A stretch of 31,476 nucleotides of DNA from a virus: the IMG/VR virus record IMGVR_UViG_3300024262_000157, positions 1 to 31,476 of that record, one strand, 5' to 3'. Position 1 is the stretch's first letter; every line of letters begins with the position of its first letter. Below, piece by piece: positions 1,915-29,787 of the stretch. The position numbers were made by a program, and so were the translations under genes. The notes under the pieces were generated by a model, which was given only the letters and a program-made list of their open reading frames with translations, did no database searches and was not told where the DNA came from.

Positions 1915-1915
1915 T

Positions 1916-9014: not shown

Positions 9015-9527
9015 TTATCTCTTTCTATTTGATGAACACATTCTTTCCAGGATTGGATCGTAGTCTTCATGGAGGCTATTGCGCTTAGGCTTATCGTTAC
9101 GGATGGGCGTTACGTTGTTCTTGACTAGTTCTACTTTAGGATACTTGGAGGCAATGTAATCCTCTTCTGCTTTCTGGACTCTTTCGTCATTCTGGTATTT
9201 GTCTCTAGAGATTCTTCTAGCCGGAAAAAAGCGACCATCGCTTTGTGGGCATAGGCAAGTCTCTCCGAGCAGTAGACCTTCAAACAACCATTCAAATCTA
9301 TGGTCTACTATCAGGGTTTCCTCTTGTTCTTCCCAGATGAAGGTAGCAACACCGTCTTTTACTCCGATTAGCATACCAAGGGGATCACAGTCTTTGCCGA
9401 GTTCATCACAAACAGTACCAGAGACAAGTTCATAAATCTTATCTTCCTGGTCCTTTGTGGACACGACTAGATAAAGAGTTTCACCAGATGATTCATCGTA
9501 CACCCAATATGTTGACTGTCTTAGCAT
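9015..9527 (-). CDS. Hypothetical protein (170 aa)
   Basis: The ATG at 9527 follows GGGAGG (actgggaggccagccaaa). The N-terminal ~100 residues look like a compact beta-rich domain with alternating hydrophobic strands (STYWVYDESSGETLYLVVS, GVATFIWEEQEETLIV) and scattered Cys. The C-terminal ~60 residues are charged and probably flexible. No family is recognised. It is the first gene of the leftward group with the prohead protease, divergent from the rightward structural genes, so a morphogenesis role is possible by context. Confidence 0.65.
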   Translation of the reverse strand: MLRQSTYWVYDESSGETLYLVVSTKDQEDKIYELVSGTVCDELGKDCDPLGMLIGVKDGVATFIWEEQEETLIVDHRFEWLFEGLLLGETCLCPQSDGRFFPARRISRDKYQNDERVQKAEEDYIASKYPKVELVKNNVTPIRNDKPKRNSLHEDYDPILERMCSSNRKR

Positions 9528-9628: not shown

Positions 9629-10486
9629 ATGTCTATCGACCCTAACCGACTATCCGGTACAAAAGATCCGTCTGAAGCACAGACGATACCTACGGGGGTC
9701 TATCCTCCTGGACCATATTCTCCTGCCGGTGTCTTCAGTAACGATGTTCACGACAATCTATTGAAGAGCAAGGGATTTAAAGCGATCCACTATCGACATG
9801 CTCTTAATCCCATACGTCGTACACCCGATGAAGGCGTATTGCTAGACCAGATGGATATGACAGGTTACAGGTTTTACGACCCCAAAGAACTGTACATTGT
9901 CCCTCAGAATCTATCTTGGGAAGATTCCTTTATGGTACATGGTGTCCATGGCAAACACACCATGACAATAAACCACACCGGGAAGTACACTGACGAATCC
10001 GGTGGACGAGTTTTTCTTAGATCTGGTGATTTGATAGTTCTTGAGGGAGTAGACACTCCTTTGGTTATGATGGAAGATCTTATCGAATATCCTACAAGTG
10101 GAATAAATCGTCTTCGATTTCCGGTTTATGGCGTGGACTATATGGCAGATTCCACTAGGCGATACGAAGAAGGTAACGATTTCCTTGTGATAAATGGCGA
10201 AATTGTGTGGACCCCTTCACCGCTTGGAGCCACCAAGCCTGGTTTCGGTCATCCGATACGAAATCAGCCAACCCTAAATGGTGGAACCACTCTCTCCTGC
10301 GTATATTGGACGAAGCCATTTCTTGTAGTTATTGATACTCCCAGAGTATTTAGAATGGTATGGTCTAATACAATAGCTAATGCCGGAGAAACATCACAAG
10401 CAACGTATCTTCCGGGTTCTGCTGTGGTGGGCTTGTCTTGGCTCCATCCACACGCTAAACTTAATGAAGATCTATGGCCAACATAA
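9629..10486 (+). CDS. Probable virion structural protein (285 aa)
   Basis: The ATG at 9629 has TAGGAGA seven bases upstream. The start region is Pro/Gly-rich (PTGVYPPGPYSPAGVF). The rest alternates short beta strands with Gly and aromatic residues and contains little predicted helix, for example FLRSGDLIVLEGVDTPL. No catalytic or metal-binding motif is seen. It opens the rightward head/neck/tail cluster. The beta-rich character and position point to a structural part, perhaps a head or baseplate-associated protein. The exact role is unknown. Confidence 0.6.
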   Translation: MSIDPNRLSGTKDPSEAQTIPTGVYPPGPYSPAGVFSNDVHDNLLKSKGFKAIHYRHALNPIRRTPDEGVLLDQMDMTGYRFYDPKELYIVPQNLSWEDSFMVHGVHGKHTMTINHTGKYTDESGGRVFLRSGDLIVLEGVDTPLVMMEDLIEYPTSGINRLRFPVYGVDYMADSTRRYEEGNDFLVINGEIVWTPSPLGATKPGFGHPIRNQPTLNGGTTLSCVYWTKPFLVVIDTPRVFRMVWSNTIANAGETSQATYLPGSAVVGLSWLHPHAKLNEDLWPT

Positions 10487-10497
10487 GAGGTTCCAAC

Positions 10498-11220
10498 ATG
10501 CTAAACCCAGTCGAAGACAATCGAAACAACGAAGAAGTTGAGCCTGCTCAGCTTACTAACACCCAGCCTCGAATCCTCGATATGAAAGTACACTCGGTAA
10601 ACAACAAGCCAGTGTTCTATGGTTACGAAGATGAGGATAAGGCATTCTGCGTCCCCACTAAGAGCTGGGAAGATAAGCCTACCTATCTGGACTATTTTGA
10701 TACAAGAGATCTAGAATCTGAAGACCTTGGGGATATCGTAGTTAATGGCCTTCTCGATAAGTCAGATTATCAGAAGCTAAAGAGCACTGGCGTCATGGAC
10801 CCGATGCTTGAACAGCTTTTTGAGAAAATGCAAGAGCTGAATGACAAATTGGTCACTCTCGAAGCAGCGATGGAAGATCAGAAAAGCAAGCAAGAACTTG
10901 AAAAAGTGAGTGATTCTCCAGTAGACGATAATGGTGTAATTGACGAGGGAGCGGATGACGGTAAAGTCCAAATCCTTCAAGAACTGTTGGATATCGTTAG
11001 AGGCGACCACACAACAGGTTCCTCTGTACTGGATCTAATCGTATCAGCTGTTAGAGGCGACGATATAGATACTCAGTCGATACGAAACGCTTTGGCTGGT
11101 GGCAGTGATGGAAACAGTGTTTCTTCGAGAAAAGGAAATAAAGACAGTAAAGCAGGAGGCAGCGAGAGTTCAGAAGGATCTGACGAACAGGATTCTGAGA
11201 AAACTGAAGACCCGAAATAA
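10498..11220 (+). CDS. Acidic hypothetical protein, probable virion or assembly protein
   Basis: I chose the ATG at 10498 because AGAGG lies just before it. The in-frame ATG at 10474 overlaps the previous gene and lacks a good ribosome site. The ~240-residue product is strongly acidic. A middle segment (MLEQLFEKMQELNDKLVTLEAAMEDQ in two overlapping pieces, about residues 100-125) should form a coiled coil. The last ~40 residues are Ser/Gly/Asp/Lys low complexity and probably disordered. No known family is recognised. The following gene's frame begins about 120 bases before this one ends, so the disordered tail is encoded by bases shared with the next gene's N-terminus. Confidence 0.65.
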   Translation: MLNPVEDNRNNEEVEPAQLTNTQPRILDMKVHSVNNKPVFYGYEDEDKAFCVPTKSWEDKPTYLDYFDTRDLESEDLGDIVVNGLLDKSDYQKLKSTGVMDPMLEQLFEKMQELNDKLVTLEAAMEDQKSKQELEKVSDSPVDDNGVIDEGADDGKVQILQELLDIVRGDHTTGSSVLDLIVSAVRGDDIDTQSIRNALAGGSDGNSVSSRKGNKDSKAGGSESSEGSDEQDSEKTEDPK

Positions 11221-12019
11221 GCCCACCTCTTTAGCCCTTGAGGTTGAGGAATCCGTTAAAGGCATCATGCCTGATATCGTAGCTCTGGCTATGAAGGATT
11301 TAGAAGAACGAGCCGTGGCGTTTATCACTGAAGAGGTTAAGCGCCTCCCAATTTCTGAAGCTCACAAAGACGAGTACTCTTCAGCCTTTACCGTTGTTTC
11401 TGATTTCCATACAGAAATCGTACATATCGCCTTCTCGACAACGGAATGGGCTGTCTTTGCTATGGAAAGCGGGTGCCCCCCATTTTCAATAAAAGACAAT
11501 CTACTCAGAAATGCTGTCAAGGTTTCCAAGAAGGGTTACCGATACCGAACTATTCCAATGACTAATAGAATCCCATCGACCCTGACCAATAAGCAAAAAG
11601 AGGATCAGTTCTGGGGCAAAAACATTGAACGGGATTTGATTAAGTCTGTGATAAAGAAGCTTAACTATAAGTACCAGCTTATAGAGGAGAAAGAACAGAT
11701 TCGGCCAACCGGCGAACCTTCCTTTATTCGTAGAGAAGTCTTCACTGTACCGGCAGAGAAGCCGGGAGCTAAGCCAAGGAAACTCACTGAGAGAGTCAGG
11801 GTGTTTGCAACAAAAGACGCCTTCAAACGTAAACAAAAACCAGTGATGACTACTTTCACGAATTTCAAAACTGTGTCAGAAAACCCAGAAAGTCAGACGG
11901 ATTGGGTACACCCTGGCTTCTCTGGCTATAATTTAATTGAAAAAATCTCTTCGTGGTGTCAGAATCAAATACCGTCAGCTTTTGGCAATACGATAGACAG
12001 ATTAATGAGGGAAGTATGA
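11099..12019 (+). CDS. Possible neck / head-tail connector protein (up to 306 aa)
   Basis: The start is uncertain. GTG at 11099 or ATG at 11108 would overlap the previous gene by about 120 bases in the +1 frame, and neither has a strong ribosome site. The first ~45 residues form a Lys/Glu-rich likely coiled coil. The body contains WAVFAMESGCPPFSIKDNL, KKGYRYRTIP, FTNFKTVSENPESQTDW and VHPGFSGYN. This layout (A-x2-x-E-x-G-x3-F-x-xK, then K-x-G-x-x-Y-R-x-IP, then TVS..W.HPG) resembles HK97 gp10-like neck/tail-completion proteins of tailed phages. I place it there tentatively. It overlaps the next gene by an ATGA junction, implying coupled translation. Confidence 0.5.
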   Translation: MAVMETVFLREKEIKTVKQEAARVQKDLTNRILRKLKTRNKPTSLALEVEESVKGIMPDIVALAMKDLEERAVAFITEEVKRLPISEAHKDEYSSAFTVVSDFHTEIVHIAFSTTEWAVFAMESGCPPFSIKDNLLRNAVKVSKKGYRYRTIPMTNRIPSTLTNKQKEDQFWGKNIERDLIKSVIKKLNYKYQLIEEKEQIRPTGEPSFIRREVFTVPAEKPGAKPRKLTERVRVFATKDAFKRKQKPVMTTFTNFKTVSENPESQTDWVHPGFSGYNLIEKISSWCQNQIPSAFGNTIDRLMREV

Positions 12020-12888
12020 ATCTGCTGCCACATGTGATTGTTTTACATCACATCAGAGAAACCTTCGAAATCTTTCGTAAAGATCCTGAAATGCTTAATT
12101 TCATATTAGGCGGATACATGGTCACAGATTCCATGGTTGATGTGTATGGCAGTGATTTTATCAATTCTGCTATACGCTGGATTAGGGACGACGAATTTAA
12201 CTATTGTCTAGGTTACCGTCTGGATACAGCTAAGGTTCCTAATATCAGCGTCATGTTCGAAGGCGGTACAGAGAACCAGCAGTTCATCGGAGAATATGGT
12301 TACCGTGAAAGTCTAGCGATTACTCCCGCATACTATGGCACATTCCATGCTTCTGAAATCAATGAGGATGGGGGGTTAGTAATCTCTGAAGATTACGACC
12401 TAACGAATAAGCTATGGCCAGGACTATACATTAAAAACGACAAGGTGACTAGACAAGTAACTGAAATGCTTAAGAATGGCGACTATACCGTTACCCTGGA
12501 TTCTCCCGTAACCTTAGCGGATGGGCTGGATTCTTGGAAAATCTACAGTAGTGTCACCACTAAGCAGCGAGAAGTCGGCGTCAGTCTAGACCGAATCACA
12601 ATAAAGATTTATCTCGATGTTCCAGGAGATCCTGAGGCGTGTGAGGTAGTCAGCTGTATTTTACGAAACATCCTTAAACATTCCAGACTAGTGCTAGATG
12701 TCTATGGTATCAACGCTCCTACTTTTTCTTACTCAGCTATAGGAAAAAATGAGAGTTATACCGGCCAAAATGTCTGGACTGTTGAATTTACGATTTCAGC
12801 TCTTATGACTGACCAGTGGATTTTGGCGACAACTAAGGGCGTAGACAGACTCACATTGAACATCGGTGGCGCGTGTTGCGGCAACTGA
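12016..12888 (+). CDS. Probable tail-terminator or neck structural protein (290 aa)
   Basis: The ATG at 12016 overlaps the upstream TGA in an ATGA junction and follows GAGGGA, so I prefer it to the in-frame start at 11953. The product has an N-terminal helical region (LPHVIVLHHIRETFEIFRKDP, about 3-23) and then mostly beta sequence with alternating hydrophobics. The C-terminal third (VWTVEFTISALMTDQWIL) looks like a self-assembling beta domain. The position, just before a small gene and the sheath and after a neck-like gene, is where myoviruses often place a tail terminator or neck protein. No diagnostic motif supports this beyond context. Confidence 0.5.
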   Translation: MNLLPHVIVLHHIRETFEIFRKDPEMLNFILGGYMVTDSMVDVYGSDFINSAIRWIRDDEFNYCLGYRLDTAKVPNISVMFEGGTENQQFIGEYGYRESLAITPAYYGTFHASEINEDGGLVISEDYDLTNKLWPGLYIKNDKVTRQVTEMLKNGDYTVTLDSPVTLADGLDSWKIYSSVTTKQREVGVSLDRITIKIYLDVPGDPEACEVVSCILRNILKHSRLVLDVYGINAPTFSYSAIGKNESYTGQNVWTVEFTISALMTDQWILATTKGVDRLTLNIGGACCGN

Positions 12889-12902
12889 CTGGAGGATTAG
12901 TT

Positions 12903-13226
12903 ATGGGAAGACGTCGTAATCTGGTTTCAAAAGAGAGTAGAGAAACTCCGGTAGAACCAGTAGAAACCATTGAGCCTGTGGCACAAGTGGCTCCTATCGT
13001 TGAGCCAGAAATCAAGAAAGAAGAACCGGTGAAGGTCATCGTAAGGCCCGTTCTCATGCTTGAGGAAATTGCAAGGACTTATAAGAACTTCAAGCCTCAT
13101 CATCTGCCTGCTATCGTATCATTTTTTCAATCCAAAGGCTTTGCATTAAGGGGCATGGAAGAGCAACTCGAACAAGGTCTCGAAGCCTTCGGGTGGAAGA
13201 AAAGCCTACGTAGCAAGCCTCGATAA
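12903..13226 (+). CDS. Small hypothetical protein upstream of tail sheath (107 aa)
   Basis: The ATG at 12903 follows GGAGG with proper spacing (ggaggattagtt). The N-terminal half is low complexity, with repeated Val/Glu/Pro units (PVEPVETIEPVAQVAPIVEP). The C-terminal half is a compact basic helical region (LMLEEIARTYKNFKPHHLP and following), ending in KKSLRSKPR. It resembles short linker or regulatory phage proteins, but no family is recognised. It lies between the tail-terminator-like gene and the sheath gene. Confidence 0.6.
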   Translation: MGRRRNLVSKESRETPVEPVETIEPVAQVAPIVEPEIKKEEPVKVIVRPVLMLEEIARTYKNFKPHHLPAIVSFFQSKGFALRGMEEQLEQGLEAFGWKKSLRSKPR

Positions 13227-16242: not shown

Positions 16243-16301
16243 AATTTGATCTTCATCATAGTGCAAAATTTTAAGTGTCTTTTGGAAATTGTGGAGGTCA
16301 C

Positions 16302-17006
16302 ATGAGCTTCAAGGATAAGCTACAGCAAAATCGTCTTGGCTGTTTTGATAAAGCACGGCCACTCGATATTACTGAGGGCCAATGGGAAGCTGCTAAACAA
16401 CACGCGCTAACTCACGGCAGTCGTCTATCGGCTGAAATAGAGCAGTCGGCCTATTACTTCTACTTCATCGGATATTCTTTCGATGACATTGCTGCTAAGC
16501 TGATGATTCCGGTAGAATCTCTAATCTACACCTGTCTATTCTATAACTGGCATGAAAGACGAGAAACCTCAGATAGCACCAGAGCCGGAGCCAAAGTAAC
16601 CAAGGCCGATGCTGCGGCTATTGACCTGATAACGGACAGCATCGTAGCTACTGCTGCTCTATATAAATCCAGATTACATGAAGCAATCAAAGATCCAACT
16701 AAAGCTAAGGATTGTCCATTTATTCCTAAGAATTTCAAGGAATTACAGACTTTGCTTACAATGCTACAGAGCCTACAAACAGAGAAACCAGGGGAATCCG
16801 GCAAGCAATCTATCAACGTAAATATTGCGAACCTAGCAGGGAATAACGCTCACCCAACCTCGTTACCTACCTCTCAACGTCCTGGTGTAATCGACGCAGA
16901 AACTGTGGATGTGCTGCCTGAGCATAAATCGGAAGACACACTGGGATTGGAAGCAGGGGAAAAACTGGACCTGCTGAAACTATTAGAAAAGGTGCGTAAA
17001 TCATGA
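16302..17006 (+). CDS. Probable terminase small subunit (HTH protein, 234 aa)
   Basis: The ATG at 16302 follows GGAGG, which decides against an in-frame start at 16275. The N-terminal third contains a helix-turn-helix-like segment, GYSFDDIAAKLMIPVESLIY (about 51-70), followed by W/H/R-rich residues. The middle is helical with possible oligomerisation segments (FKELQTLLTMLQSLQ). A Pro/Ser/Thr linker and an acidic C-terminal helix follow. An HTH domain, helical core and acidic tail of this size fit phage small terminases, which recognise the packaging site. It lies upstream of the large terminase in the same strand unit, with the modification enzyme and RNA ligase between them. Identification rests on this architecture and context. 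Confidence 0.55.
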   Translation: MSFKDKLQQNRLGCFDKARPLDITEGQWEAAKQHALTHGSRLSAEIEQSAYYFYFIGYSFDDIAAKLMIPVESLIYTCLFYNWHERRETSDSTRAGAKVTKADAAAIDLITDSIVATAALYKSRLHEAIKDPTKAKDCPFIPKNFKELQTLLTMLQSLQTEKPGESGKQSINVNIANLAGNNAHPTSLPTSQRPGVIDAETVDVLPEHKSEDTLGLEAGEKLDLLKLLEKVRKS

Positions 17007-17941
17007 GCATACCAACTGCTATCCCTAGTTTAGAGGTTCTGTATCACCACTGGCCTAAGTATCAAGAATTTCCAGAATGTAAGGGCAAAGACTTTGAGGT
17101 TGCCCTAGACACTTCTACAGAAGAAGGCTTCTGGGATTTCATGAAAGAGCGAATGAATATTTGGCATAGGCGCAACTCCGGGCTTCCTGCGCCTTGGACT
17201 GAAGACGAAGTAATTCAGAAGTACCGTTTCACTAATATTTACAGAGAATTAGATTGGCAGACGCAGGTGTGGCATACCTGGTTAAAGCAGTTTGAATACA
17301 ACTTCGATCTGTGGTTCATGAACATGCTTCATTGCCGTCTAGTATGTAAACCCGACACCATAGACAAAGTCGGATTCTTGGCTTTTAGTGACCAGCTTAA
17401 TGAGACGAGACATCAGGCTTTCCTGGATCTTCCTTCTCCCCGGTCTGGTTCTAGCTACAATTTTGCTCAGTATGAGTCGATGTTAATGGGCTACGAAGGA
17501 AGGCATGACGTGTACTATGTGCATGTCCCTAAAGTAGCAAAAGCCTGTGCTCGCGTTTTCAAATCTGGAGCAGATTCAAGTATTCACGACATGACCGAAG
17601 ACATGGTGATTGCCTTTGAAGGAAGAATGAGATTCATTCTTGCTGAAGTCATTATGGATTCTGGTTATCAAAAGCCACAACATGTCAATGAATTCAAGAT
17701 GTTCCCGATTGGCCCTGGTGCATCTCCAATGTGCAAGGAACTGAACAAGAAAGCCAAAGTAAGGCAAGTAGCTCTTACGCTTATGTCTAAGCAGCCTTCA
17801 GACTTTCCCTATCTAATAATCAATGGCAGGCCGGTATTCCTTACCACCGCCGCGATTGAACAAGGTCTGTGCGAATATCGTAAGTACAAGAACATAAAGT
17901 TCGACAATGGACGCTCTCGTCCCTTCACGCCGAGAAAATAA
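17003..17941 (+). CDS. Thymine-hypermodification enzyme (aGPT-pyrophosphorylase / 5-hmdU kinase helical-domain family)
   Basis: The start overlaps the previous stop in an ATGA junction, implying translational coupling. The 312-residue protein carries the family's hallmark N-terminal block: FWDFMKERMNIWHRRNSGLP, then PWTEDEVIQKYRFTNIYREL followed by D-W-Q-T. This corresponds to the alpha-glutamyl/putrescinyl thymine pyrophosphorylase family, related to the helical domain of 5-hydroxymethyl-dU DNA kinases. Family members act in phage pathways that replace or decorate thymine in DNA after replication. There is no P-loop kinase domain, so this is the helical (DNA glycosylase-like) module alone. 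It ends with a basic tail (SRPFTPRK). The hydroxymethylase and other enzymes of such a pathway are not in this window. Family membership is fairly secure; the exact base made is unknown. Confidence 0.8.
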   Translation: MSIPTAIPSLEVLYHHWPKYQEFPECKGKDFEVALDTSTEEGFWDFMKERMNIWHRRNSGLPAPWTEDEVIQKYRFTNIYRELDWQTQVWHTWLKQFEYNFDLWFMNMLHCRLVCKPDTIDKVGFLAFSDQLNETRHQAFLDLPSPRSGSSYNFAQYESMLMGYEGRHDVYYVHVPKVAKACARVFKSGADSSIHDMTEDMVIAFEGRMRFILAEVIMDSGYQKPQHVNEFKMFPIGPGASPMCKELNKKAKVRQVALTLMSKQPSDFPYLIINGRPVFLTTAAIEQGLCEYRKYKNIKFDNGRSRPFTPRK

Positions 17942-17970
17942 TCACTGCGCCCTTGCACTCAATACAATTT

Positions 17971-17987
17971 CTTGTTAACCTAACAAG
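17971..17987 (+). terminator. Hairpin between modification enzyme and RNA ligase genes
   Basis: CTTGTTA (17971-17977) and TAACAAG (17981-17987) form a perfect 7-bp stem with a three-base loop, followed by GTCTTTT. The stem is AT-rich, so a terminator would be weak. It may instead shape the leader of the RNA ligase mRNA: AACCT in its centre is complementary to part of the ligase ribosome site AGGAGGTT. Confidence 0.4.
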
Positions 17988-18009
17988 GTCTTTTAACACA
18001 GGAGGTTGT

Positions 18010-19107
18010 ATGTCTTCTTTGATTGTCAAGGTAGTTAAGATAACAGAAATCGTACCGCACTCCAATGCAGATAGGCTTGAAGTCGCTCTGATTGGAGGAT
18101 GGAGATGTATTGTTGCAAAAGAACGGTTTAAAGTCGGTGATCTGGCGATCTATATCCCGATTGACTCAGTTCTATCGGAAGCAGTTGAAGGTAAACTGTT
18201 TACTGATAGCAAAGTGAAACCAAGCAAGGGACGAATCAAATCTGTCAAGATTAGAGGAGAAATCAGTCAAGGTCTTCTCGCTCCTTTGGATATCCTGGAT
18301 AACCCCGAATCTAAAAAAGAAGGCGATGACGTAGCCGCTGAACTTGGTATCACGAAGTATGAACCGCCTGATCCTTCTATGGCAGGATACAAGCAGTTCC
18401 GTTCTAAGGCTCCACGTAAGAGGAACCATAACTTCAAGAAATACACTGACATAGAGAACCTCCGATATTACGGTGAAGTCTTTACAGAAGGGGAATTCGT
18501 CCAGATTACTGAGAAACTCCACGGAACGTCGGCAAGGTTTAGCTGGGCCTTGAAGGACAAGTCTTTACTGAACTGGTGGCAGAGATTCCTGTTCTGGCTA
18601 GGAACAGTCTTCAACAAGAAATCGTGGCAGTATACTTGGGTGGTTGGTTCACGGAACATGGATCTTAACCCTGAACTATTTGATAACATCTACACACGAG
18701 TAGCTGACTTCTATTCGTTGAAACGAATTCTGAATTACGGGGAAGCTGTTTATGGCGAAATTGTTGGTGAAGGAATCCAGAAAGGCTTCGACTACGGTTT
18801 GAAGGGAGATGATAAGCGTCTGTACCTGTACGATGTTATGGTTGACGGGAAGTACCTTAACCACGAAGCATTCTTGCAGTTCTGTAGTCAACGGTATCTA
18901 CCGGTAGTACCGCAGTTGTATCGAGGAGTTTACAAACCAGAGCTAATAAAGCTATTGGCTTCTGGCCCATCCAAGCTTACTAAGAACCATATCAGAGAAG
19001 GCATTGTGGTTAAGCCTGTCTCTGAAGAGAACTGCAAGATTGGTCGAAAAGTCCTCAAATATGTGAGTGATGAGTACCTGTTGAAGGATACCACCGATTT
19101 CCACTAA
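18010..19107 (+). CDS. RNA ligase, DRB0094 family (365 aa)
   Basis: This is an ATP-dependent RNA ligase that seals RNA breaks through a lysyl-AMP intermediate. The ATG at 18010 follows GGAGG, and the open frame further upstream (from 17953) lacks a ribosome site. The N-terminal ~110 residues form the OB-like domain typical of this family (VVKITEIVPHSNADRLEVAL, then GDLAIYIPIDSVL, KIRGEISQGLLAPLDIL). The nucleotidyltransferase motifs follow: motif I EKLHGTSARF with lysine K169, motif III region VYGEIVGEGIQKG, LYLYDVMVDGKYL, motif IV REGIVVKP and motif V LKYVSDEYLLK. All expected catalytic residues appear present. Phage RNA ligases commonly counter tRNA-cleaving host defences. Here no tRNA or polynucleotide kinase gene is adjacent, so its target is unknown. 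Confidence 0.88.
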   Translation: MSSLIVKVVKITEIVPHSNADRLEVALIGGWRCIVAKERFKVGDLAIYIPIDSVLSEAVEGKLFTDSKVKPSKGRIKSVKIRGEISQGLLAPLDILDNPESKKEGDDVAAELGITKYEPPDPSMAGYKQFRSKAPRKRNHNFKKYTDIENLRYYGEVFTEGEFVQITEKLHGTSARFSWALKDKSLLNWWQRFLFWLGTVFNKKSWQYTWVVGSRNMDLNPELFDNIYTRVADFYSLKRILNYGEAVYGEIVGEGIQKGFDYGLKGDDKRLYLYDVMVDGKYLNHEAFLQFCSQRYLPVVPQLYRGVYKPELIKLLASGPSKLTKNHIREGIVVKPVSEENCKIGRKVLKYVSDEYLLKDTTDFH

Positions 19108-19169: not shown

Positions 19170-22100
19170 ATGTTTAAAACAGAGCTAGAGCGCAAGAAAC
19201 TTGAAGCTAAGTTAGACGATCTTTATGAGAATCTGCTTTTCACTCCTTGCCAGACAAGAGATGAACTAAAGCAGTGGATCATCACCTTCCTTGGCATCGA
19301 TCTTCCAGACCAGACTCTTTCCGAAGACAGCAACAGTAACCCAATTGATTTTATCTGGGCTGTCTACCAGTGCGCCCTTACAGGTAAGGGCAACAACTCC
19401 TTCGTGGTTGCGGCTAGCCGAAATAGCTGTAAATGTCTCGCAGAAGGAACGGTGGTGGCTACGCCTTCTGGTCCAAGATGCATAGAAGACATCGAGGTTG
19501 GCGATACCGTTTACGACGAAAACTCCAACCCAATAACTGTGACCCACGTACACGATCAAGGTATCCAGAACTGTGTTGAACTTGTGTGCAATAAGACTGG
19601 GCAGACCTTAGCTGTCTGTACAGTAGAACACAAATGGATGTTAAAAGACCAAACCGTGCGGAAAGTCAAGGATTTTCCTCAGAACACCGAACTGCTTATC
19701 AGGCATCCCCACCAGACGTTCGGCCCAATAAACGATTCAGATGGATATATCTGGGGCTGTTTGTGCGAATCTCATTCAAGAATGACTCTTGATGATTTGA
19801 TTAATTACGACAGAGAGTATCTATGTGACTTCCTGGCTGGATTATTCGATACATACGGAATAGATGATCGGGGAATCTTCAAGTTTTCTAGCTATTCATT
19901 AAGAATAACGTCTATAGCGAGAAACTTACTCCTGTATCTTTATCAGGTTCAGATCCCTGTTTTATCTAACTACACCCTAAATCGCTCTGTTCACGATTTG
20001 GAATTGAATCTAAAAGTCGAGTCACATGAAAGAGCTTATAAGGACATATATCGTAGACGATGTAATCCAAAATTCACAAATACGACACCCAGTGAAGAGA
20101 GCGCAGTAAAAGTTAGTCTGCGAATAGTGGGAGAAAAACATTGCTACGATCTCACCGTTGATTCCCCTAACTCTCTGTATTGCTTACAGAATGGCCTAGT
20201 TACTCATAATACCTTGGCCGCTGCTATCATCGAATTCATGCTGATGCTCCACTTCGGTAGAGACATTATTCATCTAGCCGCTATTCTTGACCAGTCTGAA
20301 GCCGCTATTAAATATCTGAATAGATTCCTACGAATACCAGCAGTCAAGAAATATTCAAAGACAGACAACAAACGCTTAAAGGCGATTGCAAATCTACCAC
20401 TAAGCGAATATCGACCAACTAATGGCTCAGAGCTTCGTGTTCTTGTTGCAAGCAAGGAATCCTCTAATGCTCAGCGAGCCTCCTGTCTGCCAGGAAATGC
20501 TGAGATTCTAATAAAGAACGGTGAAAGCATTAGCTGGTGTACCGCAGAAGAGGTTTTCTCACTAATCCAAAAAGATACAGAAATCTCCTGTTTAAGCGTA
20601 AATCCAGAGTCAAGACTAACGGAATGGGCCAACATCGTAGCTGCAATGAAGCAAGAAAAAGAGGAGCGAGTAACCGTCGATGGTCAAGGATTCAGTTTTA
20701 CCGTAACCCCCGATCATCTGGTCGCAACTCCTTCGAAATCCGGAATAATATACAAAAAAGCAGCCGACCTTAACGTAGGCGAATTCATACTCACAACTCC
20801 AGAGCGACCCATATTGCATCAGAAACAGCGTTACCCTGATTTTGAAGAAGACGGGTTTTCTTTTCAAGATCTCATGGACGGTCACATGCTGGGGGACGGC
20901 GGAGTCTACCGAAGACCTAAGAACAACGCCAGATTTCAGATGTCCAAAACTACCGCAGCTGAAAGCTACTTGACCTGGCTATCCGACAGAATGAAAGATG
21001 TTTTACCCATAAAGATGTTCGACTCAAAGAGCGGCTATACCGGACAGCGACTGCTCCGAGTGGCTTCTGGCTGTTCCGCTTCATTAAACGCAACAAGAGG
21101 GCGATGGTATCCCGGCCAATCACGCTTCAAGCGTTTACCTGACGATCTTGAATTGACTTTTCAGAAACTTGCTATCTGGATTTGCGACGATGGAATATCA
21201 GGATTAAGGCGAATCTGTTGTGCAAGCTACAGCCAAGAAGAAACTGAGATACTGTGTAAAAAAATAAACAATCTTGTAGGATTTGATTGTGCATCTCTAT
21301 CTTTTACGAAAAAGGGAAAAACACGGTACCCGGATATAGCTCTGTCTTGGCCCCAAGATAAGCGAGAGGTGTTCTATCATCTTATTTCATACATTCATCC
21401 GTATTATCGCTATAAGCTGAGGAATACGACTACGACATGCATTGGCTGCGGAACAGACTTCCACAGGCACAGTGCTGAAGCTAAATGCAATTCTTGCCGT
21501 TTTTCAGACAGAAAAACTCAACAAAGAAAAGTGACTAGAAAGAGCTTTCTTATCGAGAAAGCCTCGCCCTTTGTTTATGATTTCGAAGTCGCGGACAACC
21601 ACAATTTCGTGGCTTATCGCTGTAACTCAGTGTTATTACACAACTGTCTTATATACGATGAAGTCGATCTCTTGGACAAGAGCATTCTTTCAGAATCTGC
21701 CATGATTGGTGACCCTGACAGAAATGGAAAACCACCAATCTTCGTGTATTTATCCTCTAGAAAGTCAGCTTCTGGCCCTATTCAGGAGAAGATTGACCAA
21801 AGTGCGGATGAAAAGAACGGAATCGAACTTCATAAGTGGTCCGGCATTGACCTAATGAAGAAGTGCGAGACATCTGTTCACAAGCCGCTACTCCCTAAGG
21901 TGGCTATTTACATCAATAAGGAAACACTGGAACAGCGAACCGAGGATGAATACAACGCGGTACTGGAAGAATTCAAGCCACAGTACGAACGGATTGAAGC
22001 GTTTGCTGGTTGTGTTGAATGTCCAGCGTTCCTAGTGTGTAGAGCTAAAGCTCCAAACCAGGAAAGTGAATCGTCTATTCTCCGAGACATTCCCTTCATC

Positions 22101-24287
22101 CGAACGATTGTTCGAGAAACTGGTGATATCGAGCAAATTAAAGCTCAGATTCTCAACCAGAAACCAGAAAGTACAGGTACAGTCTTCAACAAGTTCTCAA
22201 GAAGCCTACATGTGAGATCTCTGGAAGACTGCTACTATTTCGCGTATGGCGTTAAGCCTGTGAAACCCTTGGAGAAAACAGCATTTATCCATGAGCTTAG
22301 ACTGAATGGCTGGAAACTGATATGCGGGGTGGATTTCGGGTATATCGACCCGGCTGCGGCTGTCTTGATTGCGTATCATTCAAAATTTGATAAACTAATC
22401 GTACTGCATACGGAAATGTGTCCAGGGTATTCTAATCAGGATTGGCTGGTTTACGTAAAAGACACTATCTTCGATGTTTATGGCTTTGATCTCCTATGTC
22501 CTGATACTGCGGATAAGTCAAGCCCAGCTGTGGCTGGAAGACTTGGAATGCCAGCCAGAAATAAGAAGCCGTTTAAGATAGATAGCGGAGTCAGTTGGCT
22601 TCGCGCAAGGCTGTGGTCTGTTGATAGAAGACTGGCCTCTTTGGTGGTGCTGAACGATCCTCGTAACGAACCTCTGATGAAGAGTTTCGAACAATGGCAA
22701 TACAAGAAAGGTCCGATGGGCTTCATGTACGGAGTGTTTGAAGAAGATACCTTCGCGACCCATTGTTTTTCTCCCGACACCCTGGTCGAGACTGCATCTG
22801 GATTCAAGCGAATAGATGAAATCTCTGTAGGCGAACTCGTTTTAACTAAGGAAAAAGTCTATCGCCCTGTGACCAAAGTTTTTAAGAGAAAATACGAAGG
22901 CGAAATGGTGAAGATCTCTGCTTACGGTAAGGAGCCTCTACTGTGTACCCCGAACCATAACATCTGGACAGGCCGGTGGGAGCGTTCAAATGAGGGTCAG
23001 AAAACGGGCCAGCTAGCGCATAAGGGGAATCAGTACACTGAAGCAGGCGATCTATCTCCCACAATTAAGAACGCCAAAGCAAGAGCTACCGTAATTTACA
23101 GAGTACCGGAATTTGATGACACCAAAATCACGTTAAACCTACAAGAATTCGCACTTCCCGGTAGATACATGATCGAAAAAGACCGGTTTACAACAAACAC
23201 GGGATACCAGGGAAAGAAAACTAGTTATCCGAATACTATTGAAGTTGACTATAGACTGTGTTTTATCTTCGGTTACTTTGCCGCTGAAGGCTCTTGTTCC
23301 AAGAAAGCTGGTATAGTAGACTTCGCCTCACACAAAAGAGAGAGCAAGTTCAGGCAGTTCTGTAGCTCCTATTTTAATACGTTGGATCTCCGCTCTGTAG
23401 AGAGGAAGACTAGCGACAAAGGGGTCCGTCTCTGTTTATATTCTTCTATTTTTACGAGAGTTTTCGACAGTCTTTGCTATAACACAGAAAGAGACAAGGT
23501 TCTCCCTCACTTTTTTAGAGGACTCGGCAGGAAAGAGGCTGTTTATCTTCTTGCCGGACTTTTCTTCGGTGATGGATGTTTTTCTGATAACATTAGGATA
23601 AACCTGACCTCTAAACAATTAATCCTTGAGGCTTTGCATCTTTTAACGAAACTGGGAATTTCCGCACTTTTTAGGAAAATCCACAAAGCTGGCAGATTCC
23701 CGTGCGATCAGGGTAGCCAGGTGAAGGACCAGTATGGAATCAGTCTTAATAGAACAGAATCTCAGAAGTTTTTGCAAATTATTGGCGAATACGAAGACTT
23801 GTCTCTTATGTTGAAGGGCAAAACGGTAAGAATAGACACTCCTAAAACGAATTCATGCAAAAGCCGTCATGTTGATGGAGAAACTCATTACCAATTGAGA
23901 TCTATCGACAAAGTATCTGGCTGGAGTGGCTATGTATACAATCTCGAAGTAGATGAGCATCACTCATACATTGCAAATGGGATTTGTGTAAAAAACTGTC
24001 TTGATTCTCTCAGATATTCGATTGATCCTTTTGTTGTTAGCTCTACAACTAAGTATTCTATGGATACGACAGGAGTAACGAGACGTCTACCAACAGAACT
24101 AGAAGCCAAGATTGTTGTTACTTCAGCCGAAATATCTCTAAGCAGTCCAGAGAGTATGATGAGTACGATACGAGAACAATATAAGGATTTGTATCACATA
24201 GACCTTGAATCTCGTAACGCACAAGAGGATAATAAACAAAGTGATACCGAAGTAAAAAACCGAGGTAGCTTCCTTTTTAGCTTCTGA
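19170..24287 (+). CDS. terL: Terminase large subunit with three inteins
   Basis: This is the DNA-packaging motor (ATPase plus headful nuclease). The precursor has 1705 residues. Removing inteins at 89-347, 439-825 and 1199-1609 leaves 648, a normal TerL size. In the spliced protein, the Walker A is ASRNSCK/TLAAA (split by intein 1). The Walker B is LIYDEVD (D830, E831), directly after intein 2, followed by a likely coupling segment FVYLSSRKSASG. The RNase H-like nuclease has GVDFGY (D1055), CPDTADK (D1112) and, right after intein 3, CLDSLRY (D1612). A Cys cluster CVECPAFLVC (before intein 3) may bind a metal or support folding, as in some large-phage terminases. The ATG at 19170 follows AGGAG that lies in a long hairpin. 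The next gene starts 14 bases after the stop, leading to the portal. Confidence 0.93.
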   Translation: MFKTELERKKLEAKLDDLYENLLFTPCQTRDELKQWIITFLGIDLPDQTLSEDSNSNPIDFIWAVYQCALTGKGNNSFVVAASRNSCKCLAEGTVVATPSGPRCIEDIEVGDTVYDENSNPITVTHVHDQGIQNCVELVCNKTGQTLAVCTVEHKWMLKDQTVRKVKDFPQNTELLIRHPHQTFGPINDSDGYIWGCLCESHSRMTLDDLINYDREYLCDFLAGLFDTYGIDDRGIFKFSSYSLRITSIARNLLLYLYQVQIPVLSNYTLNRSVHDLELNLKVESHERAYKDIYRRRCNPKFTNTTPSEESAVKVSLRIVGEKHCYDLTVDSPNSLYCLQNGLVTHNTLAAAIIEFMLMLHFGRDIIHLAAILDQSEAAIKYLNRFLRIPAVKKYSKTDNKRLKAIANLPLSEYRPTNGSELRVLVASKESSNAQRASCLPGNAEILIKNGESISWCTAEEVFSLIQKDTEISCLSVNPESRLTEWANIVAAMKQEKEERVTVDGQGFSFTVTPDHLVATPSKSGIIYKKAADLNVGEFILTTPERPILHQKQRYPDFEEDGFSFQDLMDGHMLGDGGVYRRPKNNARFQMSKTTAAESYLTWLSDRMKDVLPIKMFDSKSGYTGQRLLRVASGCSASLNATRGRWYPGQSRFKRLPDDLELTFQKLAIWICDDGISGLRRICCASYSQEETEILCKKINNLVGFDCASLSFTKKGKTRYPDIALSWPQDKREVFYHLISYIHPYYRYKLRNTTTTCIGCGTDFHRHSAEAKCNSCRFSDRKTQQRKVTRKSFLIEKASPFVYDFEVADNHNFVAYRCNSVLLHNCLIYDEVDLLDKSILSESAMIGDPDRNGKPPIFVYLSSRKSASGPIQEKIDQSADEKNGIELHKWSGIDLMKKCETSVHKPLLPKVAIYINKETLEQRTEDEYNAVLEEFKPQYERIEAFAGCVECPAFLVCRAKAPNQESESSILRDIPFIRTIVRETGDIEQIKAQILNQKPESTGTVFNKFSRSLHVRSLEDCYYFAYGVKPVKPLEKTAFIHELRLNGWKLICGVDFGYIDPAAAVLIAYHSKFDKLIVLHTEMCPGYSNQDWLVYVKDTIFDVYGFDLLCPDTADKSSPAVAGRLGMPARNKKPFKIDSGVSWLRARLWSVDRRLASLVVLNDPRNEPLMKSFEQWQYKKGPMGFMYGVFEEDTFATHCFSPDTLVETASGFKRIDEISVGELVLTKEKVYRPVTKVFKRKYEGEMVKISAYGKEPLLCTPNHNIWTGRWERSNEGQKTGQLAHKGNQYTEAGDLSPTIKNAKARATVIYRVPEFDDTKITLNLQEFALPGRYMIEKDRFTTNTGYQGKKTSYPNTIEVDYRLCFIFGYFAAEGSCSKKAGIVDFASHKRESKFRQFCSSYFNTLDLRSVERKTSDKGVRLCLYSSIFTRVFDSLCYNTERDKVLPHFFRGLGRKEAVYLLAGLFFGDGCFSDNIRINLTSKQLILEALHLLTKLGISALFRKIHKAGRFPCDQGSQVKDQYGISLNRTESQKFLQIIGEYEDLSLMLKGKTVRIDTPKTNSCKSRHVDGETHYQLRSIDKVSGWSGYVYNLEVDEHHSYIANGICVKNCLDSLRYSIDPFVVSSTTKYSMDTTGVTRRLPTELEAKIVVTSAEISLSSPESMMSTIREQYKDLYHIDLESRNAQEDNKQSDTEVKNRGSFLFSF
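19434..20210 (+). other. TerL intein 1, in the Walker A motif (259 aa)
   Basis: It begins at Cys in CLAEGTVVATPSG, has TVEH as block B, CYDLTVDS as block F and ends GLVTHN. The following extein residue is Thr. Excision restores NSCKTLAAA, the P-loop Lys-Thr, which fixes the ends. It is the smallest of the five. A single recognisable LAGLIDADG-like motif, FLAGLFDTYG, remains, and the first motif region (YIWGCLCESHS) is degenerate. The endonuclease is likely decayed or reduced, while the splicing residues look intact. Confidence 0.92.
20484..21644 (+). other. TerL intein 2, before Walker B, with LAGLIDADG endonuclease and zinc ribbon (387 aa)
   Basis: It begins at Cys in CLPGNAEIL, has TPDH as block B, FVYDFEVAD as block F and ends VLLHN before extein Cys. 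Excision joins NAQRAS to CLIYDEVD. The endonuclease has both acidic motifs, MDGHMLGDGG and LAIWICDDG, and looks active. Near its C-terminal side is a zinc-ribbon-like CIGCGTDFHRHSAEAKCNSC (nt about 21437-21500), unusual within an intein and probably involved in DNA recognition. Confidence 0.93.
22764..23996 (+). other. TerL intein 3, at the last nuclease motif, with LAGLIDADG endonuclease (411 aa)
   Basis: It begins at Cys in CFSPDTLVETASGFKRI, has TPNH as block B, YVYNLEVDEHHSYIANG as block F, and ends ICVKN before extein Cys. The penultimate residue is Lys rather than the usual His, so Asn cyclisation may need other residues. The endonuclease motifs CFIFGYFAAEGS and LAGLFFGDGCF keep Glu and Asp, so it is probably active. 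Excision restores FATHCLDSLRYSID, the region of the third nuclease acid. Confidence 0.92.
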
Positions 24288-25302: not shown

Positions 25303-27258
25303 ATGGGGTGGTTTGATTTCCTTAAACCTTCCAAGAATTCGATAACGGCTTCCTTTCCTGTTGAAAGTCTTGAAAAAGCTGTTATTCCAGTGGATATCTC
25401 TCCGAAACTGGAAGGTTTATTAGAGAAAAGTAAGGTAGTCTTTGACCTTGAATCTACTAAAGCTACCGTAGACAACATCTACGCAAAGCTTGGCCGATTG
25501 TCGGACAAAGAACTTAGAGGTATTTCACAGTACGACTCGATTGTTTCTCTAATTATTACAACGAGATGCAATCAAGTTATGCCTTTTGGTGGCAAATCCA
25601 AAGGTAAATACCAAAGAGGATTCGTACTACGAGAGCAAACTCCAGTACAAGATGATCCCAACATACCGGCTACAGAGAAAGAAGCCGAAGCTGATTACAG
25701 AACTCGGCTATCCTCTGTGATAGCTGCCTGGATTTCTAACTGCGGGTCTAAGAACGAAGAAATCGTAGATTACGTATTTGAGAATTCTGACTCTACATTC
25801 AAAAAATGTTCTCTCAGCGACTTCATGAGCGCACAATGCCGGAATCTCCTTACGTTCGGTAGATATGCGACTCAAATCATAAGGAATAAGGACGGAATCC
25901 CCATTATGTGGCGTCCTATTCCAGTGGAGACCCTGTACAGGGTTATTGATGGTAGACTCGTGAACATGACTGGTCAGGACCAGGATGTTAACGATGAAGC
26001 TGCCGAAGATGCTAAGGAATGGAATAAGCTAGAAGAAGATAGCCAGCCAATCGCCTATGTCCAAAGAATTAACGGCAAAAATGTGTCGTTCTTTACTGAG
26101 ACAGAGGTAAAGATTGGTTATTATCAAAAGCAAGCTTTCGAAGGTCTAAACGGTTATCCGCTAGCTCCGATCGAGCTAGCATACTATGCTGTTCTGATGA
26201 ACTTCCATTCACAGATGTATCTACAGAATGCTTTCACCAAGGGTCTTGGCTCTAAGGGTGTAATTGTTCTCAAGACTCAGGATGGAGCGGCTTTATCTCA
26301 AGATGACGTAGAGAACTTCAGAAAACAATTCAGCAACTATGTAGCCAGAAACGATAACTCGGCAACTATTCCGGTTATTTCTGGACCTATTGAAGTGAAC
26401 TGGATTCCACTTTCTGCCACTGCAAAGGATCTTGAATACGTAAACCTATTTATTCGAGTATTACAGTTAGTTGCAGCCAGCTTTCAAATCAGCTTACATG
26501 AAATCGGTTTCGGTGGCATGGACCCCGAACAGCCAACGCTAGCTGATGGAATGAAACAAGACCAAGTAATCCAAGGCGAAGAGCGCGGATTACGCATGAT
26601 CATAGAAGAGTTGTACCGCCACCTCTATGATATTATCGAAGAAGCATTCCCGCAGGCTAAGGATGTATTCTATTTAGATGGAGTTGGCTTAGGCCAGAAT
26701 ACTAAAGAAGCGGATCTGGCCATCTACAAGGAAGAGCTACAAACATCAGGTACATTCGCCAAAATCTGGTCTGATTCTGAGCGTTCAGAAACATTCCCGT
26801 ATGGCGGTCATGTTCCTACTTCTCCTGTGTTCCATGAGAATGTAGCTAAGTACATGAAATATTCCAAGTTTATGTACTACTTCTTCCATGAAGAAGATGC
26901 CATGAACAATCCTGCTTATGACTTTATTATTGATCCTGCTCTTAACGAAGCTTATCAGACGCTTAAGAATGAGATGCCCGATCTGCAAAGAAAGCAAGCA
27001 GAGCTTGACGTTGCTGGAAAAGAAGCTGAAATCCAGCAGATGCAGACTCCACAAGAACCGGAAGTAGAGAAAGCGTCAGAACTTCCTGAAATGAATATGG
27101 AAGCCGAGAAACAGAAGATGCAGCTGGAGAAACTCAAACATGCTCAGAAGATGAAGCATGAAAGAGAGAAACATCACCAGAAGCTGGCTCTGGAGCGAGA
27201 GAAACAGCAAATTAGCCTGCGTCAAAACTACATGAATGCGTTGAATCGTCCGATTTGA
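25303..27258 (+). CDS. Portal protein (651 aa)
   Basis: This forms the dodecameric DNA entry channel of the head. Portal features in order: N-terminal MGWFDFLKPSKNS, an alpha-rich wing region, LLTFGRYATQIIRNKDGIP (the conserved G-x-[AS] segment) with MWRPIPVETLYRV, an extended central part, then the helical stem/crown region. KDLEYVNLFIRVLQLVAASF and ISLHEIGFGG are typical of the portal C-terminal half. The last ~100 residues are a charged Lys/Glu/Gln coiled coil. The start is the ATG two bases after the preceding gene's stop, with AAGGAA upstream. It is the next gene but one after large terminase, as expected for a packaging module. Confidence 0.88.
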   Translation: MGWFDFLKPSKNSITASFPVESLEKAVIPVDISPKLEGLLEKSKVVFDLESTKATVDNIYAKLGRLSDKELRGISQYDSIVSLIITTRCNQVMPFGGKSKGKYQRGFVLREQTPVQDDPNIPATEKEAEADYRTRLSSVIAAWISNCGSKNEEIVDYVFENSDSTFKKCSLSDFMSAQCRNLLTFGRYATQIIRNKDGIPIMWRPIPVETLYRVIDGRLVNMTGQDQDVNDEAAEDAKEWNKLEEDSQPIAYVQRINGKNVSFFTETEVKIGYYQKQAFEGLNGYPLAPIELAYYAVLMNFHSQMYLQNAFTKGLGSKGVIVLKTQDGAALSQDDVENFRKQFSNYVARNDNSATIPVISGPIEVNWIPLSATAKDLEYVNLFIRVLQLVAASFQISLHEIGFGGMDPEQPTLADGMKQDQVIQGEERGLRMIIEELYRHLYDIIEEAFPQAKDVFYLDGVGLGQNTKEADLAIYKEELQTSGTFAKIWSDSERSETFPYGGHVPTSPVFHENVAKYMKYSKFMYYFFHEEDAMNNPAYDFIIDPALNEAYQTLKNEMPDLQRKQAELDVAGKEAEIQQMQTPQEPEVEKASELPEMNMEAEKQKMQLEKLKHAQKMKHEREKHHQKLALEREKQQISLRQNYMNALNRPI

Positions 27259-27728: not shown

Positions 27729-28024
27729 AAGACCCGATCAACCTTACTCATTTGCCTCATGAGTATCTGGAGTTCTGTGTAAAGCTAGGCAATACACCTC
27801 TTTGCAGAGCAGTACAAATTGACCATGATTTCTGTCTAGACCCTGAAGAGGGAAAGCAGCTTAAGCGTCACGGCGCAGCTGGTGACTACATACTGGATTA
27901 CGGGCGACGTAAAGAAATCGTTCGTAAAGAAGACTTCGAAAGAACTTACGCTTTTTGTGAGAGAGATATAGACGGGAACTTGATTGTTCCTCTAGGAATA
28001 CTAACAGGAGATTCTCATGGGTGA
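27725..28024 (+). CDS. PGDYG-like small protein (99 aa)
   Basis: The ATG at 27725 overlaps the previous stop (ATGA), implying coupled translation. After an N-terminal region with a Cys/His-containing segment, it has GAAGDYILDYGRRKEIVRKE followed by DFERTY. This matches the layout of small PGDYG-type domains (GDY-[IL] then basic residues then F-x-x-TY) found in many phages and bacteria. The biochemical function of those domains is unknown. It overlaps the following gene by eight bases. Confidence 0.6.
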   Translation: MKDPINLTHLPHEYLEFCVKLGNTPLCRAVQIDHDFCLDPEEGKQLKRHGAAGDYILDYGRRKEIVRKEDFERTYAFCERDIDGNLIVPLGILTGDSHG

Positions 28025-28247
28025 TCTTTTCAGTGGCGTTAAAGCCAAGACCAAGAAACAAGAAAACAAAGAAGGCATGGAGAACTTCAGAAAGCAGATG
28101 TACGACTTCATGACTGCGGCTGAACTAATCAATAACCGCCTGGATGTACTAGAGAAAGGTCTAACCTATCTCTTGTCCAAAGATGAAGATTTCATCAAGC
28201 ACCACGCTCAAGAGGAAGCCAATGAAAAACCAGAAACCCCAGAATAA
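28017..28247 (+). CDS. Small coiled-coil hypothetical protein (76 aa)
   Basis: The ATG at 28017 lies inside the end of the previous gene, after AGGAG. The 76 residues are nearly all helical and charged (MENFRKQMYDFMTAAELINN and then RLDVLEKGLTYLLSK), probably a coiled coil, ending in an acidic Pro-containing tail. It overlaps the sigma-like gene start by 26 bases. It could partner the proteins around it. No family is recognised. Confidence 0.6.
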   Translation: MGDLFSGVKAKTKKQENKEGMENFRKQMYDFMTAAELINNRLDVLEKGLTYLLSKDEDFIKHHAQEEANEKPETPE

Positions 28248-29787
28248 TGCCTTTAAGGAAAGGTGTCTCTTGGGACTGGACGAACCAGAACAACTGGAAG
28301 GCTTCTGCCCTCATGGATTAGCCAGAGCGCAATGGTATTCCGATAATCCTGGTTCATCCGCTTCAGAGGAGCAAGCCGCGCCTGGTTGTTTCGTGCCTGG
28401 TACGCTAGTGAAAACTCTGTTCGGCTTTAAGCCAATTGAAGAGATTCTACCTGGCGACAAAGTCTGGACTCATAAGGGGCGCTTTCGTAAAGTAAAGTAC
28501 GTTACCAACCGCCAGTACGACGGAATAGTCTACAAATGGATTGGCGGTAATTCGATTGAGAGTAATACGCTGTTCGACAGTCCCTGCTGGATGACAGGGG
28601 ACCATTTGGTCTACACTCCGTTCAATACTACGGAGTGGCAAAAGAGCGAAAGTCTCTTTGAAATCTTCGATGAATGTGCGGAAAATATACCGTCGTTTGC
28701 TGCGGCAAAACCGGTTGTCTGCGACATCCCGTTTCGACTCCCTTTCACTCTAGAAAGATTTGAAGCATATAAGGAAGATATCCTCTGGTTATGCGGACTC
28801 TGGCTTAACAGAGGACGAGTGAGCGAAAACGATTTCTTTACCATCTCAGTAAATCGGCTCATGGTGAACAAAGTAGACGAGAAACTGAGAAGACTCCTTA
28901 CCATAATGAACGGCTGGGTAGAAATTGAGACTGAAGACGAGTACATCGTTTTCATCTGTCACCACAAGGTCTTAAATTCTTGGTTCAAAAATCATTTCGG
29001 TGGCTCCTACAGCAGTAAGCGACAGAAATGCGTTCCTAAAGAATTCTGGCTTATTCCTGTTTCGGAATTTGAACAGGTCTATCAGGGAATGACCGATGCC
29101 ATTTACCTTAGAGATGGAGGCAGTCTTTCCCGATTCTTTACTGATTCCAATAAGTTAGCGGCGTGGCTTCATACCATGCAAGGGAATAAGGGTATTTATC
29201 GACCTCTGCCTAAGCGAGGAATGGGAGATCTTGACACTTATGTTCTGGATATGCAGGAAGATAAGGATAAGTGGTACGTGGACATGGGTTCTTATTTCAT
29301 GTTCAAGCCAACTTGGTGCATGAGAAGAAACTATTCGGGTAAAGTATATGACCTAACAGTTGAAGACGACGCATCCTTTGATGTTGGTTTCATCGTACAT
29401 AACTGTAATTACTCCGTTATCTCGGAAGATGAAGACGGATACTGCTTTTACAAGATGATGAAGAATAAGGAAGGGCGAACATTCTCTGATGAAGAGATTG
29501 CTATCAGATTAGGATTAACTTCCTCTCAAGTAAGAACTATATACACCAGAGCATTGGCTAAGCTACAGAATACGGAAACCATCAAAGAAATAGATGAACT
29601 CCGCAAAGCTGGCTGTCTGTTTGATCAGCCAGAAGCAGATGACGACATCTACTATCCTGATGTAGTTTCGGATTCAGCTGATGGCGGGTATTGTGAAGAA
29701 GTTGAAGATACAGGAGGCGGAACCTCTAAGAGAAGAGGACGTCCAAGAATGTCCGGCAAACTTGCTATCGTCAACCCTGACGCTTGA
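28222..29787 (+). CDS. Sigma-region-4-like DNA-binding protein with intein
   Basis: The ATG at 28222 (after AGAGGAAG) is preferred to the in-frame ATG at 28183. The precursor has 521 residues. Excising the intein (56-394) gives a small protein of about 182. Its C-terminal half has a helix-turn-helix typical of sigma-factor region 4: FSDEEIAIRLGLTSSQVRTI, then YTRALAKLQ (about 421-450). The N-extein has GFCPHGLARAQWY and the splice junction Cys followed by CNYSVISEDEDGYC. These Cys/His residues could form a small metal site split by the intein. A basic GTSKRRGRPRM patch near the C-terminus, of AT-hook type (RGRP), may add DNA contacts. It is likely a phage transcription regulator or sigma-like factor for late genes. 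The exact partner is unknown. Confidence 0.75.
   Translation: MKNQKPQNNAFKERCLLGLDEPEQLEGFCPHGLARAQWYSDNPGSSASEEQAAPGCFVPGTLVKTLFGFKPIEEILPGDKVWTHKGRFRKVKYVTNRQYDGIVYKWIGGNSIESNTLFDSPCWMTGDHLVYTPFNTTEWQKSESLFEIFDECAENIPSFAAAKPVVCDIPFRLPFTLERFEAYKEDILWLCGLWLNRGRVSENDFFTISVNRLMVNKVDEKLRRLLTIMNGWVEIETEDEYIVFICHHKVLNSWFKNHFGGSYSSKRQKCVPKEFWLIPVSEFEQVYQGMTDAIYLRDGGSLSRFFTDSNKLAAWLHTMQGNKGIYRPLPKRGMGDLDTYVLDMQEDKDKWYVDMGSYFMFKPTWCMRRNYSGKVYDLTVEDDASFDVGFIVHNCNYSVISEDEDGYCFYKMMKNKEGRTFSDEEIAIRLGLTSSQVRTIYTRALAKLQNTETIKEIDELRKAGCLFDQPEADDDIYYPDVVSDSADGGYCEEVEDTGGGTSKRRGRPRMSGKLAIVNPDA
28387..29403 (+). other. Intein in sigma-like protein, decayed endonuclease (339 aa)
   Basis: It begins at Cys in CFVPGTLVKTLFGFKPIEE, has TGDH as block B, KVYDLTVED as block F and ends FIVHN before extein Cys. 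The central region has only traces of LAGLIDADG motifs: ILWLCGLWLNRG with Arg where the first Asp should be, and YQGMTDAIYLRDGG as a possible second. The endonuclease is probably inactive, while splicing residues are intact. Confidence 0.92.

Follow-up and report, generated by a model that had tools for sequence, protein, structure and literature searches.

An intein placed directly before an invariant cysteine of a core, sigma region 4-like protein in an intein-rich group of tailed phages

The stretch of DNA analyzed here (the window) is a virus record of 31,476 bases, a fragment of an uncultured tailed phage. A reading frame that is open over 28183/28222-29787 encodes a precursor composed of a 55-aa N-extein, a 339-aa intein, and a 127-aa C-extein, and a good ribosome-binding site (AGAGGAAG) lies directly 5' of the ATG at 28222. 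The main features of the locus are as follows:

25303..27258, + strand, portal gene, used as the marker for syntenic relatives
28017..28247, + strand, small upstream gene overlapping the precursor start; by eye, the relatives inspected have look-alikes in front of the gene
28222..28386, + strand, N-extein, 55 aa, carrying cysteines 1 and 2 of the four-cysteine site
28387..29403, + strand, intein, 339 aa
28387..28416, + strand, splicing block A, CFVPGTLVKT, including the intein nucleophile Cys1
28594..28620, + strand, splicing block B, TGDHLVYTP (T-x-x-H)
29338..29370, + strand, splicing block F, GKVYDLTVEDD
29389..29403, + strand, splicing block G, FIVHN (penultimate His, terminal Asn)
29404..29784, + strand, C-extein, 127 aa

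Two family matches, both over the cut-off, identified the intein: Hint_2 at residues 69-113 of the longer ORF (E 1e-7) and TIGR01443, the intein C-terminal region, at residues 387-408 (E 4e-5). The borders (nt 28387-29403; CFVPG...FIVHN followed by C) leave a predicted spliced product of 182 residues. Intein-free relatives align with the exteins at precisely the intein junction, so that the assignment cannot be attributed to chance, and the intein in ORF 28222-29787 is real. A sequence-only reading of this locus had proposed an intein within a small host protein of ~182 residues after splicing, and both the coordinates and the length were confirmed by the domain matches and the extein alignment. 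Cys1, the block B TxxH, the penultimate His, the C-terminal Asn, and the +1 Cys are all present; by these motifs the intein is of class 1 type with its splicing motifs intact, from which we infer splicing activity.

The window contains four inteins in 31 kb, the other three being located in the terminase large subunit (1705 aa, 19170-24287):

19434-20210, terminase intein 1, 259 aa, between K and T of what we take to be a Walker-A-like motif
20484-21644, terminase intein 2, 387 aa, just before a presumed Walker-B-like motif
22764-23996, terminase intein 3, 411 aa, adjoining the C-terminal D of what is presumably the nuclease part

In the terminases of L089 (20-2161) and L109 the intein at the second site is short and leaves little space for an endonuclease, and the L091 terminase is without an intein; inteins have been gained and lost across the phage group. 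Elsewhere in the window, 17003-17941 encodes a 5-hmdU DNA kinase-like protein (PF18723, E 1e-20), and the phage DNA may carry hypermodified thymine, while 17953-19107 encodes an RNA ligase with a PHA02142 OB domain and 1892-5689 a phage DNA polymerase III alpha, in which ~567-885 falls outside the best family matches. The genes at 5686-8163 (-), 8178-9527 (-), and 9629-13226 (+) have almost no Pfam or PHROGs match.

Searches with the exteins alone returned nothing significant in viral contigs or isolate phages (tblastn), isolate-phage searches with homologues as queries were likewise without a significant match, and the portal alone retrieved no relatives from the viral contigs. Relatives were reached through the neighboring portal gene by means of profiles of four and then six portals, which retrieved close relatives with portals about 39-62% identical, and the orthologue behind each portal was then located by a profile of the spliced protein. 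The gene was present behind the portal in 21 of 26 close portal loci, a set from which 16 remote portal matches (E 2e-10 to 6e-4) were excluded. The five gene-less contigs (L102, L112, L113, L117, and L121) all end within 1.8 kb past the portal match, with 593, 0, 3, 1765, and 1712 nt remaining, respectively. The extein family is a core gene of this phage group. After removal of duplicates (e.g., L104/L111 and L105/L106), the 21 loci yielded 19 distinct sequences, and the family alignment comprised 20 rows, i.e., the spliced window protein and 19 intein-free homologues, with a median pairwise identity of 26%. Five remote members (L163-L166 and L169), one of them (L169) from a phage with a portal of only 22% identity, were added later and stand outside the 20 rows. 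Among 30 records of more distant portal carriers a convincing member was found in G011 only; weak matches in five other such records were left uncounted. The family was absent near the portal in Mx1, SPO1, and LysYB1, whole-record searches of Mx1 and SPO1 gave weak matches only, and no relative emerged from bacterial genomes scanned with subgroup A10. Two sets of candidates were dismissed: a LysYB1 match that crosses a stop and is near chance (13 bits), and Arthrobacter phage matches, which are full sigma-like proteins without the cysteine domain.

Four cysteines of the N-terminal domain were invariant across the alignment (20/20 rows for each):

28264..28266, + strand, codon of invariant Cys1 (C15 of the spliced protein)
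28306..28308, + strand, codon of invariant Cys2 (C29), the C of C-P-H
29404..29406, + strand, codon of invariant Cys3 (C56), also the +1 splicing nucleophile
29443..29445, + strand, codon of invariant Cys4 (C69)

Only five columns were invariant, these four and one Leu of the helix-turn-helix (HTH) described below. A crude hypergeometric estimate, which ignores relatedness and the general conservation of cysteine, gave P 1.7e-6 for at least four of the five invariant columns falling on the protein's six cysteines. The spacing C-x9..13-C-x18..29-C-x11..12-C held in every row, and the CxxC pairs of a zinc ribbon or knuckle were absent among the invariant cysteines in all 20. The intein sits between Gly55 and Cys56 of the spliced protein, at a junction with Gly at -1 in 18/20 rows and Cys at +1 in 20/20. 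The third cysteine directly follows the intein and so serves both as an invariant residue of the site and as the +1 nucleophile; with two cysteines on either side of the intein the site is split in the precursor.

The sequence-only reading had suggested that splicing may assemble a Cys/His metal site, with intein-free homologues as the check. The cysteines flanking the junction were kept in 20/20 rows, whereas the His of C-P-H, two residues after Cys2, occurred in only 3/20 (the window, L089, and L090); the cysteine part of the proposal thus stood, and C-P-H was rejected as a Cys/His ligand pair. The same reading had counted a single N-extein cysteine, that of C-P-H, and had placed the second C-extein cysteine 14 residues on; the relevant N-extein cysteines are two, C15 and C29, and the C-extein distance is 13 (C56 to C69, with 12 residues between). 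The joint conservation of four cysteines in all 20 rows is what a metal-binding Cys4 site would show, and four cysteines, not a Cys/His combination, probably make up the putative metal site. Among the remote members, L164, L165, and L169 retain the four cysteines, as does L166 by eye, with a shorter first loop and two cysteines that the automatic alignment misplaces. L163 (member at 2459-3034, its neighboring portal sharing 55% identity with the L125 portal) lacks both Cys2 and Cys3, a joint loss as would be expected of a joint site; it shows that a family protein can exist without the four-cysteine site and offers a natural experiment on the need for the putative metal site.

Downstream of the junction lies the second domain of the spliced protein:

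29491..29568, + strand, sigma-70 region-4-like helix-turn-helix (PF04545)

PF04545 scored 25.6 bits in the window genome search, over the cut-off, and 23.6 bits against the spliced window protein alone, just under the cut-off of 24.1; in the L008 record it reached 26.6 bits, also over the cut-off. Across 12 records the match was over the cut-off in two and at E<=1 in 11, some of these in other genes, and Pfam placed Sigma70_r4 at E<=1 in five of seven members. A profile of the seven members searched against the PDB gave best matches that were mostly sigma region 4 (best E 0.0026), and VIA-align placed residues 394-466 onto sigma region 4 with weak Z scores of up to 3.8. A region-4-type HTH after the junction, as had been proposed from the sequence, is therefore upheld by the PF04545, PDB profile, and VIA matches. 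Sigma region 2 (PF04542), which a complete sigma-70 factor would have, was found in 0/11 virus records of the group, most of them fragments, and the sole match among the 12 records was the isolate Mx1. An RNA polymerase Rpb2 domain was not found in five records, mostly fragments, and the PHROG match to late activators was not significant (best E 0.078, in one of seven members). On these sequence matches, a role in recruiting the host polymerase is plausible. In Myxococcus phage Mx1 the annotated sigma factor (L002 1166-2173) apparently stops, by eye, within region 4, and may need a separate region-4 partner.

Two AlphaFold models were weak: model A8 (L089, 19 rows) was mostly helical with a mean pLDDT of 62, and the second, that of the precursor, had a mean of 50. 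In the precursor model, residues 11-60 and 411-460 averaged pLDDT 73-92 per block of ten and the intein was mostly below 50; since the precursor exteins were modeled through the intein-free homologues, AlphaFold provides no test of precursor folding. Neither model matched a PDB entry in Foldseek at E<=0.001, and two viral proteins were matched in BFVD (E 8e-4 and 6e-3), one of them named sigma-70 region 4. The VIA listing was without a metal-domain family, an absence that is not evidence.

These data bear on two other views of the mature protein. The protein might be a DNA-binding accessory of packaging or head assembly rather than a transcription factor: the gene is located between the portal and the prohead protease, and no sigma region-2 partner appeared in the 11 virus records. 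We think this unlikely, since the HTH is of the sigma region-4 type, the kind that binds promoters and the beta-flap, and since a terminase-small-subunit-like HTH protein may already exist at 16275-17006 (a weak Terminase_5 match, below the cut-off). Somewhat less doubtful, and still tentative, is the view that the four-cysteine domain holds a [4Fe-4S] cluster instead of zinc, which would make the mature protein a redox-responsive RNA polymerase partner, WhiB-like in function. WhiB proteins have four cysteines, spaced C-xn-C-x2-C-x5-C, and a link to sigma region 4. Consistent with a cluster are the four invariant cysteines without CxxC pairs, the mostly helical model, the aromatic residues surrounding Cys3 and Cys4, and a sigma4-like domain on the same chain; the WhiB cysteine spacing, however, is not found here. 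The window family thus resembles WhiB in its four cysteines and its sigma region 4 connection but joins both in one polypeptide, and is set apart by its cysteine spacing.

The intein itself retains traces of a homing endonuclease:

28786..28824, + strand, degenerate LAGLIDADG motif 1, WLCGLWLNRGRVS, with Arg in place of the acid (register by eye)
29077..29130, + strand, degenerate LAGLIDADG motif 2, VYQGMTDAIYLRDGGSLS (register uncertain)

Where the terminase inteins read FLVGYFLAEGSCS or FIFGYFAAEGSCS at motif 1, the window intein has Arg at the position occupied by Glu in the related inteins, which indicates, in this by-eye register, that the acid has been lost. Motif 2 is disturbed and ambiguous, and the family search of the window returned no LAGLIDADG match at E<=0.1; in the same register, the catalytic acids that an active LAGLIDADG homing intein carries in both motifs were not found together, and the endonuclease looks dead. 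Of the inteins found, the one in the terminase of L125, a related phage, came closest, at 61% across the first 46 aa and 36% across the final 64 aa; next was terminase intein 3 of the window itself, at 31% across 124 aa. There was no close relative in the viral contigs and no PDB sequence match at E<=0.1. In the family tree the window groups with the intein-free L008, L089, and L090 (support 100/99), and a single gain on the window's branch would be the simplest account. Most likely the intein was once mobile and descends from the lineage of terminase inteins present in this phage group, an origin that rests on short local similarity.

The location could also be explained on purely selfish grounds, conserved DNA with a +1 Cys accounting for the site, the role of the cysteines being irrelevant, and splicing being constitutive. 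The intein is carried by one of the 20 family members, the terminase inteins of the same phage likewise occupy conserved motifs, the endonuclease is degenerate, and the base composition of the intein resembles that of the rest of the window. We consider this account likely and found nothing decisive against it; it is compatible with our best explanation, for whose evolutionary part it is the default.

Our best explanation, to which we assign a probability of about 0.72, is that a stranded mobile intein must splice for the Cys4 site of a core DNA-binding protein to be assembled. The host is a core phage protein with a four-cysteine N-terminal domain followed by the sigma-70 region-4-like HTH. 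From established intein chemistry, Cys1 of the intein would attack the Gly(-1) bond, the thioester would move to Cys+1, the third cysteine of the site, Asn339 would cyclize, and an S-to-N shift would give back the free thiol. Splicing would thereby rejoin the 2+2 cysteines without a scar; binding of a metal, either Zn or an Fe-S cluster, and folding of the mature protein would then become possible. The intein would have landed on a highly conserved site that already supplied the required cysteine, and would have lost its endonuclease since. We infer splicing activity, metal binding, the transcription role, and the origin of the intein from sequence. The chemistry is ordinary; the host protein and the insertion site are unusual for an intein.

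MoaA is an Fe-S enzyme. Its intein in Pyrococcus abyssi forms a disulfide between Cys1 and an N-extein cysteine that acts as a redox trap, as described in the available portions of two reports (PMC10663303, PMC3922620), and available text of the latter gives a Cys1/Cys+1 disulfide for the Pab PolII intein. Excerpts describe Zn on the catalytic Cys of a mycobacterial DnaB intein (PMC7360933), and a DnaB intein and peroxide provide another precedent for conditional splicing (PMC6195587). With these precedents, and with a nucleophile that is the invariant Cys3, the intein might be a sensor, as the sequence-only reading suggested. A +1 nucleophile that doubles as a metal ligand would put splicing under the control of metal or redox state, and the spliced factor would go on to activate late genes. 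Transthioesterification should be blocked when Cys56 holds a metal, and a Cys1-Cys+1 pair might form under oxidation. The MoaA intein is likewise found in a cysteine-dependent metal protein and pairs a catalytic with an extein cysteine; according to those same portions, however, its N-extein Cys is at -3, whereas the nearest one here, C29, is 27 residues upstream of the intein Cys1 and the site residue is the +1 nucleophile. Since no N-extein cysteine lies near the junction, a MoaA-type Cys-3 trap is absent and was rejected; the hosts also differ, an oxidoreductase in one case and a phage HTH protein in the other. Because only one of 20 members carries the intein, any switch would be private to this lineage and the sensor idea is weakly founded; a single occurrence speaks against regulation as a conserved design. 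Gating of splicing by metal or redox state is thus possible but unsupported, and we judge a sensor improbable. We give equally little credence to its fuller form, in which a ligand cysteine of a phage RNA polymerase-binding factor serves as nucleophile and metal or cluster occupancy and redox state time the mature factor; if true, it would mean a post-translational metal/redox gate on phage gene expression.

Among other known systems, the archaeal MjaTFIIB intein (335 aa) is of similar size and has a small transcription factor as host, to judge from the accessible part of its description (PMC8966425), but it is not from a phage and its host is not sigma-like. Phage terminase inteins, as partially documented (PMC5050341; PaBG group, PMC7412058), are of the same phage-borne kind, and the nearest relatives found for the splicing domain of the window intein are the terminase inteins of this phage group; the window intein differs from these in its new host gene and site, its length (339 versus 411-416 aa), and its degraded endonuclease motifs. 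T4 gp33 and the minimal single-HTH sigma factors of jumbo phages are also small phage HTH proteins that may bind the RNA polymerase flap (excerpts of PMC7824862). The window family differs from them in its Cys4 domain, in having no detectable sigma region 2 in the group, and in that a sequence link to gp33 was not found. A partial literature search returned no report of a phage sigma-like protein interrupted by an intein, or of an intein located at a zinc site.

The locus offers a clear natural example of an intein whose catalytic +1 residue is an invariant residue of a putative metal site, and the intein-free orthologues permit direct comparison, so that the debate over host regulation by inteins can be put to the test here. 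It also reveals an unnamed core family, with a putative Cys4 site and a sigma4-like HTH, in an intein-rich phage group.
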